28,084 nt of DNA, taken from Saccoglossus kowalevskii (taxonomy: Eukaryota; Hemichordata; Enteropneusta; Harrimaniidae). The translations under genes and the position numbers were made by a program. The stretch is taken from NCBI RefSeq assembly GCF_000003605.2, contig NW_003117443.1, forward strand, positions 157,371 through 185,454, written 5' to 3'. Every line of letters begins with the position of its first letter. The stretch's first letter is position 1. Below the pieces are notes generated by a model. That model was not told the DNA's origin and ran no database searches. It saw only the letters and a program-made list of their open reading frames with translations. This document shows positions 3,301-24,676 of this stretch, in pieces.

Positions 3301-6300
3301 CAAAATCTCTCAATATAGACAAGTAGTCGTTTGACGATCATCATCATAATCAAGCATCAGCTTCTGGATCCATATCTCTGACATGTTTATGTTCCAACTA
3401 CATGTATACATGTATTACTATAAACAAAACTATATATTATCTTGAATTTGTTAAATGTAAACTGAGCAATGCATGGCTTATTCATAGATATAATACAAAT
3501 GTCTCTCATCACAAATACATGTATGAATTTTTTATACAGGCATGCCTAAATAGTTTTATTACAGAGTCTGTCAGGTTTTATAATTGATTGTCACTGCCTG
3601 TAAATTACTTTGAAGTGTGTGAGACACAAAATCACCAGTCAGCTGTTGACAATATATCATGTACACTGTATATGTAGCATGTACAATTGCAAATCAATTT
3701 CTGGATCTACATGTATAACATGATAAAATTGATGTACATTTATATAATGAATATATAAAATTTGAACATAATCAGTCAAAGCATGCCAGAGATATGGCTC
3801 TAGAAAAGCATTCATTAAAACAAAATGGCCACAAGTCAGCCATTTAGAATCCGATCTGAAAAATACAAGCCATGCATGACACTGTCCCTGTTAGTTATCA
3901 AACTTAAGATATATAATTTTGTTTATAGTAATATAGTACAAACATAATCATGTCAGAGATATGGATCCAGAAGCTGATGCTTGATTTATGGTGATTGGTT
4001 AACACTGAAATGGTTGACATTCAGTCATCTTGTATCTGATCGTCAAAGGAATACTTATCCATATTGAGAAATATTGCTGTGGAACAGCATTACCGTCATC
4101 GCCTTATTGTTCCGAACACCAAAACAGCTAAGTTGCCAGCTAAGTTGCTGACTGCTTTGGTGTACGCGTCTAAAAATCGTTATTTTACTTGACTTCCTCA
4201 AATCAACTCATTTTTAAGAGGGGCGCTTCTCGACTCAATGTGGACTCAAGTTAACACACCACTATTCCTCTCAGTGTGCTTGTTTTGTTTATTATTAAGT
4301 AGCTTATGCAATGTTCATTAATAATGATTAATAAAAATAAATTGAACCAATAACTTGAATGTGCCCCCACAATTTATCCATATGACTGACAATGGTTGTG
4401 TCGCCAGGAAGCTAACTGAAAATCGAAAGATTGGACTTGCGTGTGTGCTCTGAATCGTATATCGATTGCCACATCCTTCTTACCCAAGCCAAATGTACCA
4501 AATTCAGCACAGGCCTGTGCGCCAAGCCTGTATATTTTGTTGCATCAACATATTGAACAAGACACGGCAGTCAATCAACACAAACAAAGCTTGCAGGTAT
4601 TAAATTCGGGGCTTTGTGGAGGCTGAAACAAAAGTGACCTGTCTGGCATCGAGCATCTCACGGAGAACGGGTTCGGTGAAATTACCGCGATGAAAACCAC
4701 AATTGCCCATCACAACAGTGTCGCCTTCTCCAACTTACGGCCGACCATCTACTACTATACAGCCCCATTCCATTTGAAGGGCTGCGGAGAATATTGAAAT
4801 GGGTCACACCAACTTGATGCGGGCTATGCAATAATTCACGGTAAAATTTATGTTGGTTGTGTAGTATCGTTGCACTTTCACTGCCGGCTGACCGACTGGA
4901 ACATGTCCACAGACACGATTGCTCGCCGTATAAAAAAAATGAACACGGAAAAGAGTCAAGTTGAGAAATCATGTCGATGTAATTCATGATTCTGCCCATG
5001 TTATGTTCCGTCAGCTGTTCTTTCGGAATAGACTTAATTTTTGTTATCTAAATCTCGCTTGAATGTACATGTATGTACAAATACTCTCATCCAACAGCTT
5101 TCCTTTCCTTTCACTTCGCTAGCTGACTTAGATGCTTTGTTGGCTTTCAAAAACTCAATAAATTCCACTACTTCGGTGATTCCCTTTGTACGTGAGCGAC
5201 CGGTCGATTTAGAGGCGCGAGTTGATCCCGTTTCCCTGAGTTTTTCCGAGTCGACAATGCCGTGTCTATTAAGTACTGATCGATCTCCCAGTCTCATTGG
5301 CTAAATATCGCAGCGAAAATCCATTCAGCCACTGACGTACTATATATGACCGGGTTGTATGATGAAAGAACCTAGATTTTTGCATTGTGAAATTATTAAA
5401 ATAGTCGTGAAAAAAAATTTCCCCGATTGGACAACGCAATGTAATAATAAACTTGTGCGCAAAACTTCAACAGAAAGAACGTTCCATTATAATTTGGGGG
5501 TTGACGCTTTTAGTGCGACACTGTACATACAGTGTCTTATATTTTGATATCTCATTCACTGTAATATATGGCATTGTACACGGAATATTTAAATACATTG
5601 AAATTGGGGGTGTAATCCTTGAATCGATTTCCAGAACACTTGACTTGTGTGTGTCCCTCGCAAGGAGTGTGACATCTCCTTTTGGTGTTAGTTTGATCCA
5701 AGGGGGTCAGATAAGATAACGATCTTTAGACGCGTACACCAAAGCAGTCAGAAACTTAGCTGGCAATGTTGCTGTTTTGGTGTTCGAAACAATATGGCAA
5801 TGACAGTAATTAAAACAAAATAGTCACCCATTTTGAATACATCTGCATATCTATAACATGATGTAGAATGAATATATAAAATTTTAAGTCAAATCATGTC
5901 AAAGATACGGCTCATACAGCCACATTCATCAAAACAAAATGGACACCAGTCAGCCATTTTGAATCAGATTTGAAAAATAAAATGACGTTCATCAGGGACC
6001 CATAATGTATGTAACAAGTTTGAACAAAATCCATCCGTAAACGACCAAGAATCGGTTCCACAATGCAGATGCAATGCAATGCCGCCACTTGGCCATTTTG
6101 AATCAGATATTATATCTGTATATCTGTATCAAGAATGAATATATAAAATTTGAATCTGTCAAAGCATGTCAGCAGTACATTTGTTTGTATGTTGACGGTA
6201 TCCCCAATTATAGACCCAGGGTGTTTTTACTGGACGTCGACGAAATTCATTAAAATATATGTGTAAAAAGTGTGTTTCATTACATAACAATCATGATTGA

Positions 6301-15562: not shown

Positions 15563-15662
15563 TTAAACTTGTTCTTTCCGGTTCAATATTCAATGTACGG
15601 AAATAGCACTCGTGTGTGCGTGAGTGATAGAGGCTGGCGAAACTGTCTCACAACATGTTTTA

Positions 15663-17414
15663 CTGTCATCGCCATATTGTTCCGAACACCAAAACAGCAA
15701 CATTGCCAGCTAAGTTGCTGACTGCTTTGGTGTACGCGTCTAAAGACGGTTATCTTACTTGACTCCCCTTGGATCAAACTAACACCAAAAGGAGACGTCG
15801 CACTCATTGCGAGGAACACACACAAGTCAAGTGTTCTGGCAATCGATTCAAGGATTATACCCCCAATTTCAATGTATTTAAATATTCCGTGTACGTTGCC
15901 AAATATTACAGTGAATGAGACACTCTGTATGTACAGTGCCGCACTAAAAGCGGCAACCCCCAAATTATAATGGAACGTTCTTTCTGTTGAAGTTTTGCGC
16001 ACAAGTTTATTATTACATCGCGTTGTCCAATCGGGGGAAAACAATTTCGTAATTTTCTTTTCACGACTATTTTAATAATTTCACAATGCAAAAATCTAGG
16101 TTCTTTCATCATACAACCCGGTCATATATAGTACGTCAGTGGCTGAATGGATTTTCGCTGCGATATTTAGCCAATGAGACTGGGAGATCGATCAGTACTA
16201 TAGACACGGCATAGTCGACTCGGAAAAACTCAGGGAAACGGGATCAACTCGCGCCTCTAAGTCGACCAGTCGCTCACGTACAATGGAATCACCGAAGTAG
16301 TGGAATTTATTGAGTTTTTGAAGGCCAACAAAGCATCTAAGTCAGCTAGCGAAGTGAAAGGAAAGGAAAGCTGTTGGATGAGGGTATTTGTACACCCAAC
16401 ACACTGCCATCCACAAAAAACATATACCACACATTCAAGCGAGATTTAGACTACTCATATAAAAAATTACGTCTATTCCGAAAGAACAGCTGACGGAACA
16501 TAACATGGACAGAATCATGAATTATATCGACATGATTTCTCAACTTGACCCTTTTCCGTGTTCTTTTTTTTTTTTTTGATACGGCGAGCAATCGTGTCTG
16601 TGGACATGTTCCAGTATGTCAGCCGGCAGTGGAAGTGCAACGATACTACACAACCAACATAAATTTTACCGTGAATTATTGCATAGCCCGCATCAAGTTG
16701 GTGTGACCCATTTCAATATTCTCTGCGGTCCTTCAAATGGATTGGAGCTGTTTAGCAGTAGATGGTCAGCCGTAAGTTGGAGAAGGCGACACTGTTGTGA
16801 TGGACAATTGTGGTTTTCATCGCGGTAATTTCACCGAACCCGTTCTCCGTGAGATGCTCGATGCCAGACAGGTCACTCTTGTTTCAGCCTCCATATAGCC
16901 CAGAATTTAATACCTGCGAGCTCTGTTTGTGTTGATTGACTGCCGTGTCTTGTTCAATATGTTGATGCAACAAAATATACAGGCTTGGCGCACAGGCTTG
17001 TGCTGAATTTGGTACATTTGGCTTGGGTAAGAAAGATGTGGCAATCGATATACGATTCAGAGCACACACGCAAGTCCAATCTTTCGATTTTCAGTTAGCT
17101 TCCTGGCGACACAACCATTGTCAGTCATATGGATAAATTGTGGGGGCACAATCAAGTTATTGGTTCAATTTATTTTTATTAATCAATATTAATGAACATT
17201 GCATAAGCTACTTAATAATAAACAAAACAAGCACACTGAGAGAAATAGCGGTGTGCTAACTAGAGTCCACATTGAGTCGAGAAGCGCCCCTCTTAAAAAT
17301 GAGTTGATCCTAGGAGGTCAAGTAAGACAATCTTTAGACGCGTACACCAAAGCAGTCAGCAACTTAGCTGGCAATGTTGCTGTTTTGGTGTTCGAAACAA
17401 TAAGGCGATGACGG
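15663..17414 (+). mobile_element. Tc1/mariner-like DNA transposon, copy B (decayed)
   Basis: A 1,752-bp relative of copy A in the opposite orientation, with inverted ends CTGTCATCGCC (left) and CCGTCATCGCC (right, read inward) and TA at 15,661-15,662 and 17,415-17,416. It shares the folded terminal repeat. The plus strand carries the transposase remnants. Unlike copy A it keeps GAT (16,578-16,580), GAC (16,803-16,805) and GAG (16,918-16,920) at the three catalytic positions, plus the segment lost in copy A near 16,390-16,440. A thymine run at 16,563-16,577 and several indels break the frame. Confidence 0.9.
16165..17120 (+). pseudogene. IS630/Tc1-mariner transposase remnant (copy B)
   Basis: Pieces in several plus-strand frames read as a helix-turn-helix-like N-terminus, a TPNTLPSTKNIYHTFKR segment (about 16,390-16,445), an RNVCGH-like core around the first Asp, VVMDNCGFHRGNFTEPVLRE with the second Asp, and QPPYSPEFNTCELC with the Glu. 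The Asp-Glu spacing is about 37-38 residues after allowing for a one-base indel, which fits the DD(34-39)E/D range of the superfamily. Frameshifts and stops make it non-functional. Confidence 0.85.
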
Positions 17415-17704
17415 TATTTATTTCCAACGCGCGTGGTCGGCGCTTTTATTCAAAGCCGACGTTGTCAGCGGAATAGTGCACAAAATCGGGCAGGTTTCGC
17501 ACGTTAAACGTACTTTTACGTACACGTTACGTGCATTTAACGGACATTAGCTTTTCGTGTTAAGCAGGTAAAAACGAAGTGAACATTATCATTGTCGAAA
17601 AACAAGGATATTTGAACTGCCAAATCGCAGGTCGGCAGGAATTTGCGTCGCAAATTGTGACATCATCTATGGTCTATCATTATCAATAATATATTGTTTA
17701 GTGA
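17415..17704. other. Short intergenic stretch, nothing recognised
   Basis: Contains a dense set of ACGT-containing words (ACGTAC, TACGTGC) near 17,500-17,540 but no gene, RNA or repeat that I can name. Confidence 0.5.
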
Positions 17705-17905: not shown

Positions 17906-18153
17906 CAGAGGGAGTTGAAAAAATTTATGTATTTTAATAAATTATTAAATAATAAAATGTTATATTACTTTTATTTTACCACCCCCTCCTGGTCTTTTAC
18001 CCCCCTCTTTTTTATACCACTCTTTCCTTTATCACAACTTTGTTACGCGCTAATGTTATATGTAAATTTTAACGCGCGATGTAGACACACTCAATTATTT
18101 TACTATATAATATATAATTTATTAAAATACATAAATTTGTCCAACTCCCTGTG
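17906..18153. mobile_element. Non-autonomous element with 40-bp TIRs, hAT-like ends
   Basis: The left end CAGAGGGAGTTG and the right end CACAGGGAGTTG (read inward) continue into AAATTTATGTATTTTAATAA and then ATTAT on both sides, giving about 40 bp of near-perfect inverted repeat. GTTCATT flanks both ends (17,899-17,905 and 18,154-18,160). hAT elements usually make 8-bp duplications with CAG-type ends, and here 7 bp match exactly. The 248-bp unit has no coding sequence. Confidence 0.8.
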
Positions 18154-18160
18154 GTTCATT

Positions 18161-18685
18161 TTCTATCTCACAATCTTTTGCAAAATTCAATATGGAGTTA
18201 ACATTGTTTTGCTATAGATAAGATAGATACAAATGCTTTATTTCAACCACTCAGAAAATTTCTAATATGTTTTTCAAAACCATGGCAACAATTTACAACA
18301 ATTTATTCAATTTTATTTTGTTTACGCGGTACAGTTCACTTCGTGGCTAGAAATCATTGATTCAAATTGGAAGAACAATCGCTACCCGAATAAAATGGTG
18401 CATTAGATTAACAAATCATGTGTGTTCTTTTGACGATCTCCTGTCAATCAAGATCAGCTGACAAAGCCATGTTTTCAATGTATACATAGTGGGGCAGATA
18501 AGAGAAAAATCGTGCAAATGGTGATAAAAGCACCAAATTTGGCATAGTGACTTGTAAGGGGATACTTAAAAAATCCACCCGATTGGCCACTCAAAATTCC
18601 AAGATGGCGGCCATTTTTCAAGATGGGACTCCAGATAAGGGTTTTTCGCACTTACAGGGATGTACTTGGTCAATTGGAGTGATCT
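18161..18685. other. Intergenic stretch with a GGCGGCCATTTT block
   Basis: Contains CAAGATGGCGGCCATTTTTC (about 18,600-18,619), similar in kind to the repeat family around copy A. No gene was recognised. Confidence 0.5.
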
Positions 18686-19075
18686 TGGTGTCAATATATA
18701 TGGTTTTTGGTATGCTGAATTCAATTGTTCTAGCTTTACAATCTTCAGAGTACCAGTTGTACCAGAAAATGACAAATTAATAACAGAATACACATATTCA
18801 ATTTATTTTTTTATTTTTAAGGTTTGTTACTTTATAACATAGTAAACTTTTAAAAGATCAGTCGACTGAAATAATGACACCAAAAAGAAAAAACAATTAC
18901 TGACCATATTACATATTATTTATGTAAAATTATGTTAAAGTGTGCCAATAACATTTCAATTAAGTGAACATTGTGTCAATGGCTATGGTTTATAGCATGC
19001 TCAATTCCCTTTTCCCTAGTTTTACAACAGTAACAATAATACCAGTAACAATAATAATAACAAAATACAACAATT
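18686..19075. repeat. Diverged direct repeat downstream of the CXC pseudogene
   Basis: About 100 bp starting GTGTCAATATATATGGTTTT (18,688) is repeated in diverged form from 18,973 (GTGTCAATGGCTATGGTTTA). Shared landmarks in order are GCATGCT-like, CAATT, CTAG.TTTACAA and a final TAATAACAAAATAC or AATAACAGAATAC. It may be the remnant 3' flank of the element carrying the CXC gene. Confidence 0.45.
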
Positions 19076-19161
19076 CAAATAGTAAAACACCTTAAAACTA
19101 GCGTCTTTACATGTAATGGCATTATACAAACTTTAAATAATGAAGAATTTTGTCCTATTCC

Positions 19162-22100
19162 TCACTGCTCACACATGCAACTACAGAGAGCAGTGCAGCA
19201 GAGTCCTGAGCGAAAGCATTTGCATCTCGGGTTGCAGCCTTTCTTGCAAGAGCATTTGGTCAGTTCCTGACAGACTTTTGCGACTGGTGGAGGAGTTGAC
19301 CAACAGACTTGCCATATCTCCTGTCCATGTCCATCCCCAGGCATCAGGGCTGTTGATTTGAGGGTTTTGAATTGTTGCTCGACCCCATATGGTTCTACCC
19401 TGGTAGGCAGCACGCTTTGCATGTTCCATGAGGGCAGCCCTGGTTGGCGGAATTGAGTCATATGACCTCTGTTTGCGGGCAAAGAGATCCAACCTTGCCT
19501 CGTTCACACCGGCAGCAGCACTGGATCTGTCATACATAAGAACAACAAAGTTCTCTAGCTTCTGAAGGTCACAATCAGACACTTCACCCGGGCAGTGACT
19601 AAGTTTCATGAAGGTGTCAGACACTTCCCTGCAGACATCCCATGTCAGCCATGCTGATTTCTTTCCTCTACCACGGAAAGCAGAGACAACATCACACCCA
19701 GTGAAAGCATGAAAGTATACCATCCCACTGGATTTCTTGGGCCCTATTGCAGAAACAACATCATGGACTGGAATCCACCTAGCATTGGGCCTTGACCAAA
19801 AGCAATCCACATGCTTTCAAGACCAAGCTCCTACAAGGATGGCAGTAATGACACTGCTATTACGATCACATCAGTGTCATTGGCTTTTATGATAAGAGAC
19901 GTGCTGCCTTAAAGGGTTGCGTTCCTGGCATGCACATTCTAGTATCAGCTTCTTCATGAGAACATGGGGCCACACCATCCAAGGACTCCCTTCTGTTGCT
20001 GATGGCATCAACTCCTTTTGTCACGATAACAGTGCTTTCTGTGTCAGTCTCACACATTTTCTCTGCAAGATAATTAAACAGCTCTGTCTTGTTGCTAACA
20101 TCCCGCAGAAAATTTCTCCAGTTTGTTGGGGTCTTGGTTGTTTCTGTCACTCTTCGCCTAATACCTTGCTCTCTTTTCGACCTGGTCTCTGACTTCAGAC
20201 TTGATGTCTTGTATACATCAAATACTATGTTCACTTGCTTGTATTTGGCGCCATACGATTTGAGCTTGGGAACAATATCTTCTCTGGCATATTCACCAAA
20301 CATCTTTGAGCTCCTCAGGGGTGTGGCGTTGACAAGGGCTGAGCCATCAATGATGATAGTATCTCCATCTGGTTCTGTGTCTGGTAGGGTAACTTTTGAT
20401 TGAAGTATGTCAACAAGCTGTGACTTCTGGCACATATGAAGTTTGCCACTGTCACTGAGAGAGGCTGGAGCTGACTTGTTCTCATGCTTGAAAAAATCTT
20501 GTAAGTCACACTGTCTGACTTGGCAGGAGATGAATAGTCTTGAGAATAGCTGGCAGTTATCTTTCAACACTTTCTCCTTGGAACTGCTAGCAGCTTGTTC
20601 ATGTTTGAAGAAAGAAACCTTGTTCCTCTTAATTGGGTGGTAGAATGAACATTCTCCCTCTTTCTCCAAACCTCCAAACTGGAACTGTTGTTTTCCTCTG
20701 GCGTGATGTGTGTGAACCAATTCAGCAAGGGTTGGATCTGCAATGTTCTTTGTGTCTAGCACTATTAAATCTGCTGACATTTCTTGGAAGGGGCTAGACA
20801 TCTCCTGCAGTGCTGTTTGCAGTGCTTTCACCTTCTCAAGAAAACATTTTTGGGTGCTTGAAGTCTGCTCATGATGTTTGGTGGTGAAAGCTGCATCTTT
20901 CACACTGGAGATGGCCTCATAGCCAGCAACCAGGCGACTCACCTCTGGGCCAGCCACCATCCACCTACAAAGTGCCCCTGGGTCCTCAGTCAGTCCAATT
21001 GCTCCTCCATCACTTTTAATGACTGCATTGTTTTGCTCATGGGCTTGGTCAAAGGCCAAGGAAGAGAACTCTCTTTTTGTCTTGTGTACAACAAAGTTTC
21101 CTCTGTTAAACTCTCTGGCCACTTCTGGGTCCTGTTGCTCCAGGGACATCATGTCCCTGAGATGAATTGGAAGCCACCTCGCATAATTCACGTTGTTATT
21201 TGCAAAAAAGTAGGGGATCAGCTGTGTCAGTGCTTCTTGGTACAGTTCAAAGTTTCCTTCTCCGAATGAGCGGATTAGTATGAATATGGCAAGTTCCATA
21301 TCCAACACCAGACTCCAGAACTGGAACTGTGGACTCTCAAGTCTCCACTGATCATGCCAGTCTTGAAAGGTCAGAGTTGAATTGCCCAACTGCTCAGACT
21401 CTGAAAGGTAGTCTTGGTATGCCTGCTTCATCAGTGCATACAGACTGCATGCTGTGATCTGGTGGCCTAGTCTTGTTCTTGTGACACTTGACACAACCAG
21501 AAATGACTCCAGATGATGCAACTCCCGCTTCAGCAATGACACTAGCCCATCCACTGTCTTCTAACAATGTTCCAAGTGACCTGAATACAGCCATCTCTAT
21601 GTGAAGCCCGCCAAACATGACGAACTTGTCTTCTCCATATTCAGACCACTGCCATTGTATTTGCTTAGCCAAAGCAAACAGTGGATGATCAGCAGCGATG
21701 ACAGGGATCTGTCCTGGGTTAATGAAAGCCACTGTTTCTTGAATCTTCTCCAGGGCATGTTTTGATGGTTGCGACAGAGTGAGTCTGGTCACGGATCAAA
21801 GTCAGCAGTGAGGTGATGCTCACTTCAAATGACTTGCTCCACTTCTGTGCTGCATGGTGGGCTGCCCAAGTGATATTGACCACACCACCAACACTATCAG
21901 TGAGGGATACCTCTTCCAACCAAACATATTCTCTCGCAGGTCTGAGCGGATTGATTCAAGTGCTGGATATGAAAGGCTACTCACTGCAGGAGAATTGGGA
22001 TTTTTGGGAATAAATGCTGGCCGACATTGGTGAATGCATCAGGAAGCTCTGGAACCTTCTTTACCCTAACATTGGCACTGATTTTTAGTGCGTTACGTTC

Positions 22101-22532
22101 CTCACCATGGTGTTCAGAGGTTGGGTGTTGAAAGCGGAACATGCTGGTACCATGGAACGAAGATTTAGCTGTAGTTGCAGTTGGGTTGAGATCAATGTTG
22201 TCCACAGCTGCAGTTGTGAACACATGTCTCCTCAAGACAGGTGGGCAGACCACTCCGTCTTCCACATACTGGGCCACAACTGTCTCTCCCAACTGGGCTG
22301 ATATTTCGAGAACCCTATCATAAGATATACTGACCCCATTTTCATGAAGTATCTCTATGAGTTGCCTCTTTCTCGTCTTAGCAAACACGGACATGTCAAC
22401 ATAGACACCAAAAGGTGTCTCCCGGTCCTTGGAATGTCTGTGAATCTGTGTGTCTTTCTGTGACTTTGCAAAACAGTTGTACTGCAACAAATGTGACATT
22501 GCATTGTCTGATTTGGGAGTGCCATGCTGCAG
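19162..22532 (-). pseudogene. Relic of a large protein with FEN1/PIN-like nuclease motifs and a C-terminal CXC motif
   Basis: Intronless over 3.3 kb and coding for about 1,100 residues, with at least seven frame changes (near 22,015, 21,912, 21,742, 21,510, 19,935, 19,795, 19,325) and in-frame stops at 19,909-19,911 and 19,831-19,833. The longest intact piece is 19,887-21,554. Order of parts: an N-terminal block (HSKDRETPFGVYVDMSVF, RVLEISAQLGETVVAQYVED), a helical middle (NYARWLPIHLRDM, FDQAHEQNNAVIKSDGG, ALCRWMVAGPE), then acidic motifs IIIDGSALVN, VNIVFDVYKTSSLKSETRS, SHEEADTR, ANDTDVIVIA and HAFTGCDVVSAFRGRGKKSA, ending in CSCKKGCNPRCKC. I recall similar uncharacterised proteins from other marine invertebrates. 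The nuclease reading is inference from motif order. A possible splice acceptor (TCACAG) sits at 22,533. Confidence 0.8.
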
Positions 22533-23128
22533 CTGTGATTTACAAATAAATAAATAAAAATACTGGTCAAGTTTCGTCTCCGGCCACGGCAGTGGTTTAT
22601 TGCTTAACAATTATTTTCAGCTAAATTTTGTAAATATTGTGCGTATAAAACCCATTTTTACTGAATACAATTTATATTATGTGTGTTATCCCATTTCGTT
22701 TCGTTCCGTTTTGTTTCGTTTCATTGATTACAATAAGCCTCCGTATGCTCGTGTTGGAAGTGGCGGGAATGTCCCGGTGGGAAAGTTCAGGTGGACGTTT
22801 GGCCTGGTCGGGCTATGGTCCGCCAATTCGAGGCCTGTGGCGGTGTATGAAAGTGGTTGTTGTAAGAGGGGGCTTACAGCGGGCGCAGCAGCCCTATGAG
22901 TTTATTTCTTGGGGCCTATTGCAGACATTAGCATTTTAAAGGGGGCCTACTTGCTTCCCGTGTGGGCCCGCTTTAGAAGGTGAAAAACACCCCGCTTTCC
23001 CGCTAAATTTGGAACGCACATGGGGTAGTAACAGCATATAGAGTGACCCCCCGGGGTTGATGTGACTTGTTAGCTTGGCTATATATCTGGTAGCGTCGCG
23101 TATGTGTGGGCATCAAATACGAACACAA
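22533..23128. other. Intergenic stretch with TTTCG repeat and GC-rich palindromic part
   Basis: Degenerate (TTTCG)n at about 22,690-22,725. It is followed by a GC-rich segment (22,740-23,000) with several partly inverted words (GGGGGCC, GGGCCCGCTTTA, CCCCGCTTTCCCGC). These recall the AGCGGG ends of the 15,406 MITE, but no clean element borders were found. Confidence 0.4.
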
Positions 23129-23181
23129 GTTCAGCACCATTAATGAGGTTTGATTGACACGCCTCACTGACGGTGCTGAAC
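23129..23181. repeat. Hairpin with matched internal stem
   Basis: GTTCAGCACC (23,129-23,138) pairs perfectly with GGTGCTGAAC (23,172-23,181). Inside it, TGAGG pairs with CCTCA. Symmetrical five-base internal loops separate the two stems. The overall length of 53 nt resembles a small structured RNA or a foldback remnant. Confidence 0.65.
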
Positions 23182-23797
23182 GTTATCTTGCATGAAACGT
23201 AACTTGCAATTGACTGTGATGATGCATGTTTTGTGGAATACGGGAAAAGGGCCCGAAGCATGCGCACTGCGTACAAAATATAATGCAGACATTATTATTT
23301 ATTGACCCCCGCTCTGTCTATTGTGGTTATTTGAAGGCTGTACATGCTTTCTATTATACTAAACTGGTCACCAAATTTAACAAGTGTTTCTGCTTGTCAT
23401 TCTGATGCCGGCGTGAGTGTTGGCAAGACTAAATAAGTTTCCGAGTCGATAGTATACAAGCGCCACCAGTGGCTGTTCCCGGCTCCTTTTTTTTCGGATA
23501 AATCTGGTTATTGAATTCATTCCGTTGATCTGTTGCTGCTCCCAGTGTTGACGTGCAACAATCTCACAAAAGTAAATCTTAGTTTCAGGGTATTCACATA
23601 ATAAATTCTCAATTCCAGTGACGCGATGTCTCTTCCAGTGTCGATATATTTCCCGCCAATAATGGGGGGGGGGGGGCGTCGTTATCAGCAATCATTTGTC
23701 AATTACAGCTCCACTATAGTTGATTTTTTAGCAAGGTATCTGTTTTGTACATATACGGAGCTCAAAATGAAATTAAATTACTACATCCAGACGTAAC
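23182..23797. other. Intergenic stretch with a G-run, no gene assigned
   Basis: A guanine run lies near 23,663-23,676. A minus-strand open frame (23,377-23,691) has a protein-like composition (EIYRHWKRHRVTGIENLLCE) but no family that I recognise. Confidence 0.45.
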
Positions 23798-24003
23798 AAT
23801 CTAATAATTCAGGGAATACCAGAAAAAGAAGATGAAATCACTGACGACACAGTCGTCCAAGCAGCAGAAGCCGTGGGAGTGCATGTTTCCTAACATGACA
23901 TTGATATCAGCCATCGAACGCAACTTCCACATAATCGCGAGCAGGCAACATCAAACATCATGATAATCGTCCGTTTCAGGCGTCGGACAATTCAATTTAA
24001 TTA
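23798..24003 (+). pseudogene. LINE ORF1 (L1-type, RRM region) fragment
   Basis: The plus strand reads NLIIQGIPEKEDEITDDTVV, QAAEAVGVHVS, stop, HDIDISHRTQLPHNREQAT, SNIMIIVRFRRR. The order NLxIxGIPE, VGV, DIDxSHR and IIVRF is the conserved core of L1-like ORF1 proteins (Transposase_22 family), which bind the element's RNA. There is one internal stop and no matching endonuclease or reverse transcriptase beside it. It is a 5'- and 3'-truncated relic. The last two thirds are copied again in the tandem duplication. Confidence 0.75.
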
Positions 24004-24676
24004 AAGACGATCTCTAAAAATAACGGTAAACGAATACTTTAGTTTAATGAAGAATATAGAATGTAGATCAAACAAATGCCCGCGCGTAACATACGTATTT
24101 ATCACATATCAATAAAAATTATGCGACTTGATTCATGCCACGCCAACTGTTGAAAACTACCAGCCCGATATTTCGTACGGCCACTTTGGTTTGGTTTGTG
24201 AATATTTAGGAGATATTTACAATTAACTATTTTCCGAATATATTTTATCATATTTAAATCACTGACGACACAGTCGTCCAAGCAGCAGAAGCCGTGGGAG
24301 TGCATGTTTCCTAACATGACATTGATATCAGCCATCGAACGCAACTTCCACATAATCGCGAGCAGGCAACATCAAACATCATGATAATCGTCCGTTTCAG
24401 GCGTCGGACAATTCAATTTAATTAAAGACGATCTCTAAAAATAACGGTAAACGAATACTTTAGTTTAATGAAGAATATAGAATGTAGATCAAACAAATGC
24501 CCGCGCGTAACGTACGTATTTATCACATATCAATAAAAATTATGCGACTTGATTCATGCCACGCCAACTGTTGAAAACTACCAGCCCGATATTTCGTACG
24601 GCCACTTTGGTTTGGTTTGTGAATATTTAGGAGATATTTACAATTAACTATTTTCCGAATATATTTTATCATATTT
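23835..24676 (+). repeat. 421-bp perfect tandem duplication (two units)
   Basis: Unit 1 is 23,835-24,255 and unit 2 is 24,256-24,676. I see one difference (A at 24,091, G at 24,512). The junction shares only a two-base overlap with the flank. The unit starts inside the LINE ORF1 fragment and includes about 250 bp of AT-rich downstream sequence. The near identity indicates a very recent duplication or an assembly artefact. Confidence 0.95.

Follow-up and report, generated by a model that had tools for sequence, protein, structure and literature searches.

A frame-broken transposon relic in Saccoglossus kowalevskii, probably of the AcademX lineage, with remains of a putative DDE transposase and a predicted FEN1-like nuclease

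The window analysed here is a 28,084-nucleotide stretch of the genome of the hemichordate Saccoglossus kowalevskii (NW_003117443.1, positions 157,371 to 185,454; contig C1090 in the 572 Mb genome searched). Its minus strand carries the relic of a transposon, the features of which are given in Table 1. An original prediction, made from the letters alone, had placed a nuclease gene at 19,162-22,532, but the relic was found to run from about 18,487 to 22,510. The 3′ border is sharp when compared to locus L046, a copy with 95% identity, the two sequences diverging at TAGTGGGGCAGATAAG (window position 18487). On the 5′ side, profile searches place the beginning of family homology near 22508. The 5′ end of the window copy is lost and the adjoining upstream sequence is another dispersed repeat: the stretch 22512-22607 (residues 2-33 of the reading frame above the truncation) belongs to a different repeat family, found at three further places in the genome with 66-76% protein identity. 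No tRNA genes were found in the window, and no Rfam match exceeded threshold.

Table 1. Features of the transposon relic (window coordinates)
Feature	Position	Strand	Basis or landmarks
Whole transposon relic	18487..22510	-	from 3′ terminal inverted repeat up to 5′ truncation point
Putative transposase fragment, first catalytic Asp (VDNID, Asp 22200-22202)	21984..22510	-	profile E 2e-60
Putative transposase fragments, two frames, second Asp (ADHPLF, Asp 21688-21690) and conserved His of GGLHIEM (21601-21603)	21397..21955	-	profile E 8.4e-14, 3.3e-35
Putative transposase C-terminal part, probable catalytic Glu (FDQAHEQN, Glu 21036-21038)	20301..21560	-	profile E 3.3e-148
Predicted FEN1/XPG-like nuclease domain, three frames	19325..20366	-	IIIDGSAL, VNIVFD...K...R..R, HEEADTR, NDTDVIVIA, FTGCDVVSAFRGRGKKSA
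IIIDGSAL	20334-20357	-	Asp 20346-20348
VNIVFD	20217-20234	-	Asp 20217-20219
TSSLKSETRSKR	20172-20207	-	motif located by sequence scan
HEEADTR	19938-19958	-	EEAD at 19944-19955
NDTDVIVIA	19855-19881	-	DTD at 19870-19878
FTGCDVVSAFRGRGKKSA	19652-19705	-	Asp 19691-19693
CXC motif CSCKKGCNPRCKC	19216-19254	-	motif located by sequence scan
Cys-rich CXC-like tail CSCKKGCNPRCKCFRSGLCCTALCSCMCEQ	19165..19254	-	same tail pattern in other loci
3′ terminal inverted repeat (TAGTGGGGCAGATAAG..., reading inwards on + strand)	18487..18548	-	cross-matches to other copies' ends

The residual coding span of the relic is about 1,115 codons, and the matching pieces, taken by position, pass through six frame changes (frames 2, 0, 1, 2, 1, 0, and then 1 at the CXC motif). 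IIIDGSAL, VNIVFD and HEEADTR are all within a 557-residue open piece (19887-21560), a second frame carries NDTDVIVIA together with the CXC motif, and FTGCD occupies a third. As its motifs are spread over three frames, the gene is broken. Judged by its sequence, the window copy is a 5′-truncated, frame-broken element that is most likely inactive now. The motifs named in the original prediction are all present on the minus strand where it had put them, its intervals for HEEADTR and NDTDVIVIA covering only EEAD and DTD.

Family profiles of the transposase and nuclease parts, which include window rows among their members, were compared with the minus-strand pieces of 18400-23300. The transposase profile matched five pieces in order (E = 2e-60, 8.4e-14, 3.3e-35, 7.4e-15 and 3.3e-148), as did the nuclease profile for three (E = 5.1e-51, 4.9e-5 and 9.1e-70). 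With these profiles, the best E for any plus-strand frame across the whole window was 0.11, so the ordered series of motifs is more than a chance occurrence. Two stray matches were seen on the minus strand (E = 0.14 and 0.89).

The N-terminal half, described as large and unknown in the original prediction, looks like a DDE (RNase H-fold) transposase. In the family alignment, the first Asp is kept in 13/15 loci and is followed by N in all 16 loci; the second Asp is retained in 17 of 19, the His of GGLHIEM in 21/21, and the probable catalytic Glu in 21 of 23. DDE transposases lead the fold comparison, for which the predicted model was of low confidence. The model shows RNase H-like strands and a helical stretch between the second Asp and the Glu, an arrangement shared with the P element, Hermes (hAT) and ISCth4 transposases, although identity to these is just 6-11% among the matches listed. 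We know of no FEN1-like fusion in any of the three. Pfam DUF6589 matches the transposase part weakly, in 5 of the 47 members of transposase alignment A3 (best E 0.0039; where bits were given, for two members, they stood at 15.3 with a cut-off of 27), and a literature search for DUF6589 found no paper. Pfam models for KDZ transposase, XPG and TCR had no match at E ≤ 1 among the members of alignments A1 and A3, which leaves their presence possible.

The C-terminal half is, by predicted fold and by the order of its acids, a FEN1/XPG-like 5′-nuclease. The original prediction had proposed such an enzyme and was right in this: structure comparison returned a FEN1/EXO1-type 5′-nuclease fold, and seven active-site acids follow one another as in FEN1/EXO1. 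With FEN1, EXO1, XPG and the T5 D15 nuclease the relic shares the fold, the order of the seven acids, K/R after the second Asp and G.GKK.A after the last. It differs in having Asp as the second acid of the EAEA pair (EEAD), in its low identity to these nucleases (9-15% among the structural alignments listed), and in being fused to a transposase. Neither Pfam XPG_N nor XPG_I matched any of the 42 members of alignment A1 at E ≤ 1, and sequence comparison with XPG-like exons of the host was weak or without result.

Among the 30 loci, many of them truncated or broken, six carry a Cys-rich tail of this pattern, and the tail is a component of the transposon family. One of the six tails matched Pfam TCR (Tesmin/TSO1 CXC), scoring 13.6 bits where the curated cut-off is 23.5, and the window-copy tail gave no Pfam match at E ≤ 10. 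The tail is best called CXC-like.

Three protein pieces searched against the same genome gave 84, 32 and 67 match rows, several per copy. Twenty fetched regions, together with loci from the first genome search and after removal of loci on the same contig, made up the 30 distinct loci, including the window. Iterated HMMER searches starting from L034 (an 830-residue open piece) and L032 (352 residues) join pieces of these loci, that of the window among them. Alignment A1 uses 42 of 63 pieces, shorter ones being omitted by hand, and A3 keeps 46 of 51 candidate rows by a greedy choice based on profile placement (five dropped); an earlier transposase alignment (A2) was discarded because MAFFT put fragments in wrong places. 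L031, L033, L035 and L039 were rejected as intact copies, as their long open frames contain runs of X over assembly gaps. The N-terminus of L045 is about 120 residues longer than that of the window copy. Two Cys/His-rich, zinc-finger-like repeats lie upstream of the transposase part in L032 (3361-4917, minus strand), a region absent from the truncated window copy. L049 (contig C3205, 16 kb) holds several tandem copies of one family member, about 3 kb apart.

Ratios of nonsynonymous to synonymous substitution rates (dN/dS) for the window copy were 0.45 over 157 codons and 0.38 over 70 against L043, and, against L046, 2.25 (101 codons), 1.18 (53) and 0.22 (108), all from a small number of changes. 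L049 against L044 gave 1.00 over 157 codons, and comparisons of the window copy with L044, L035 and L045, and of L046 with L045, were saturated. These values offer thin hints that the family's protein has been under selection while single copies decayed freely. No relatives were confirmed in viral contigs (three of eight scans; 4 and 18 pattern matches in two scans were unconfirmed), and none were found in plasmids.

As DNA, the 3′ end of the window copy is found at five places in the genome, its own locus included. Its terminal repeat scores 50, 57, 66 and 122 against the ends of L033, L045, L035 and L046, compared to 30-40 in 20 shuffles (one locus, five of the queries). Similar, outward-pointing terminal stretches of 60 bases are present in L035 (3′; best cross-match 66), L033 (5′ and 3′; 67 and 62), L045 (5′ and 3′; 77 and 67) and L036 (5′; 62), while the 5′ end of L042 is less certain (51). 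In all, an end was present in 7 of 21 loci scanned. Outside these 21, end-like sequences placed and directed as 3′ and 5′ ends, respectively, occur at L014:1345-1403 (score 50) and L025:285-322 (score 44). Candidate 3 bp target site duplications (TSDs) were seen at L033, whose assembled 5,031 bases include 1,822 N, with AAA on either side, and at L036, with TTA on either side if its weak 3′ end (score 35) is correct. The flanks of L045, which is free of N and about 5,776 bases long, show no 3 bp match, and the window copy has lost its 5′ end.

The nuclease of the AcademX lineage is reportedly of the XPG kind. The lineage itself is credited to Kojima (2020), as cited in PMC10045372. Within the Academ superfamily, TSDs are 9-10 bp in AcademH and 3-4 bp in AcademX, a distinction tied to the encoded helicase or nuclease; the same passage gives AcademX a transposase and an encoded nuclease, the type of which it leaves unnamed (PMC10045372). 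Beyond that passage, the literature search found nothing on AcademX structure, the passages retrieved from PMC10799480 and PMC9587614 having no description of it. The 100 curated Academ elements of bivalves average 5,565 bp (PMC10294476), or about 5.6 kb. Two defining features are seen in the relic family: the DDD/E transposase of Academ/AcademX (conserved D, D, E and fold comparison) and, by fold, a nuclease where AcademH has a helicase. For this reason, and by comparison with published descriptions, the relic is probably what remains of an autonomous DNA transposon, a copy truncated at its 5′ end and broken in frame; its most likely place is in the AcademX lineage of the Academ superfamily, although AcademX has described TSDs and the relic family only candidates. 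The architecture, which the original prediction had thought undescribed, is in print already for AcademX transposons as far as transposase and nuclease go, and as a very similar class is apparently known, a new member is much likelier than a new kind of gene.

If the relic instead came from a separate, unnamed superfamily outside Academ that joins a DDE transposase to a FEN1-like nuclease, the P element transposases as best fold matches, the unsettled TSD length and a comparison with Academ made by description would all be accommodated; this is distinctly unlikely, since the accessory nuclease, element length and candidate 3 bp TSDs agree with the AcademX description. A decayed or retrocopied structure-specific nuclease gene of the host would account for the FEN1/XPG fold and acids, but is highly improbable: the transposase part with its Glu shares the open piece 19887-21560 with IIIDGSAL and HEEADTR, the family has inverted repeats at its ends and numerous divergent copies, and a Pfam XPG_I profile search of the genome found three places, none of them the relic. 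Of the earlier suggestion of a mobile or retrocopied gene, mobility stands, and a retrocopy is rejected on account of the inverted repeats, which are those of a DNA transposon, and the fused transposase. A further reading, in which the nuclease does the main enzymatic work and the RNase H-like half serves only for binding, has in its favour that, in the family alignment, the nuclease acids are conserved at least as well as the DDE residues; retention of D, D and E in nearly all loci, as counted above, makes it scarcely credible.

A complete element of this family would encode one protein of an estimated 1,200 residues or so (the window copy plus the L045 extension), ordered as an N-terminal region, a DDE transposase with helical insertion, a FEN1/XPG-like 5′-nuclease and a short Cys-rich CXC-like tail. 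The transposase would bind the inverted-repeat ends, cut, and join them to the target; the nuclease may act on the other strand, trimming or cutting 5′ flaps or branched ends, at excision or during repair of the short target gaps, and the tail may help to hold DNA. A more specific proposal, which we consider unlikely, gives second-strand cutting or 5′ flap removal to the FEN1-like domain, in place of the DDE domain or the host. A single DDE-nuclease-CXC polypeptide would then combine transposition and end-repair chemistry, and its CXC tail would act as an additional DNA clamp. To our knowledge, such a clamp is not recorded for AcademX.

Other repeats are present in the window. A miniature inverted-repeat transposable element-like sequence at 17906-18153 has 40-nt inverted ends (93% complementary) with GTTCATT on each side, and from its ends is presumably hAT-like. 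A 421-base tandem duplication (23835-24676; 420/421 identical) is either recent or an assembly artefact. A dispersed repeat family with 91-94% identity pairs 4090-4197 with 15660-15767 and 5719-5812 with 17327-17420, with similar reading-frame fragments at 5411-5719 (plus strand) and 15583-16071 (minus strand).

A type of protein that Pfam misses here is explained as a transposon protein, and Table 1 offers a residue map for a transposase and a flap-type nuclease that may work together. For annotation, the warning is that such genes are transposons and not host repair nucleases.
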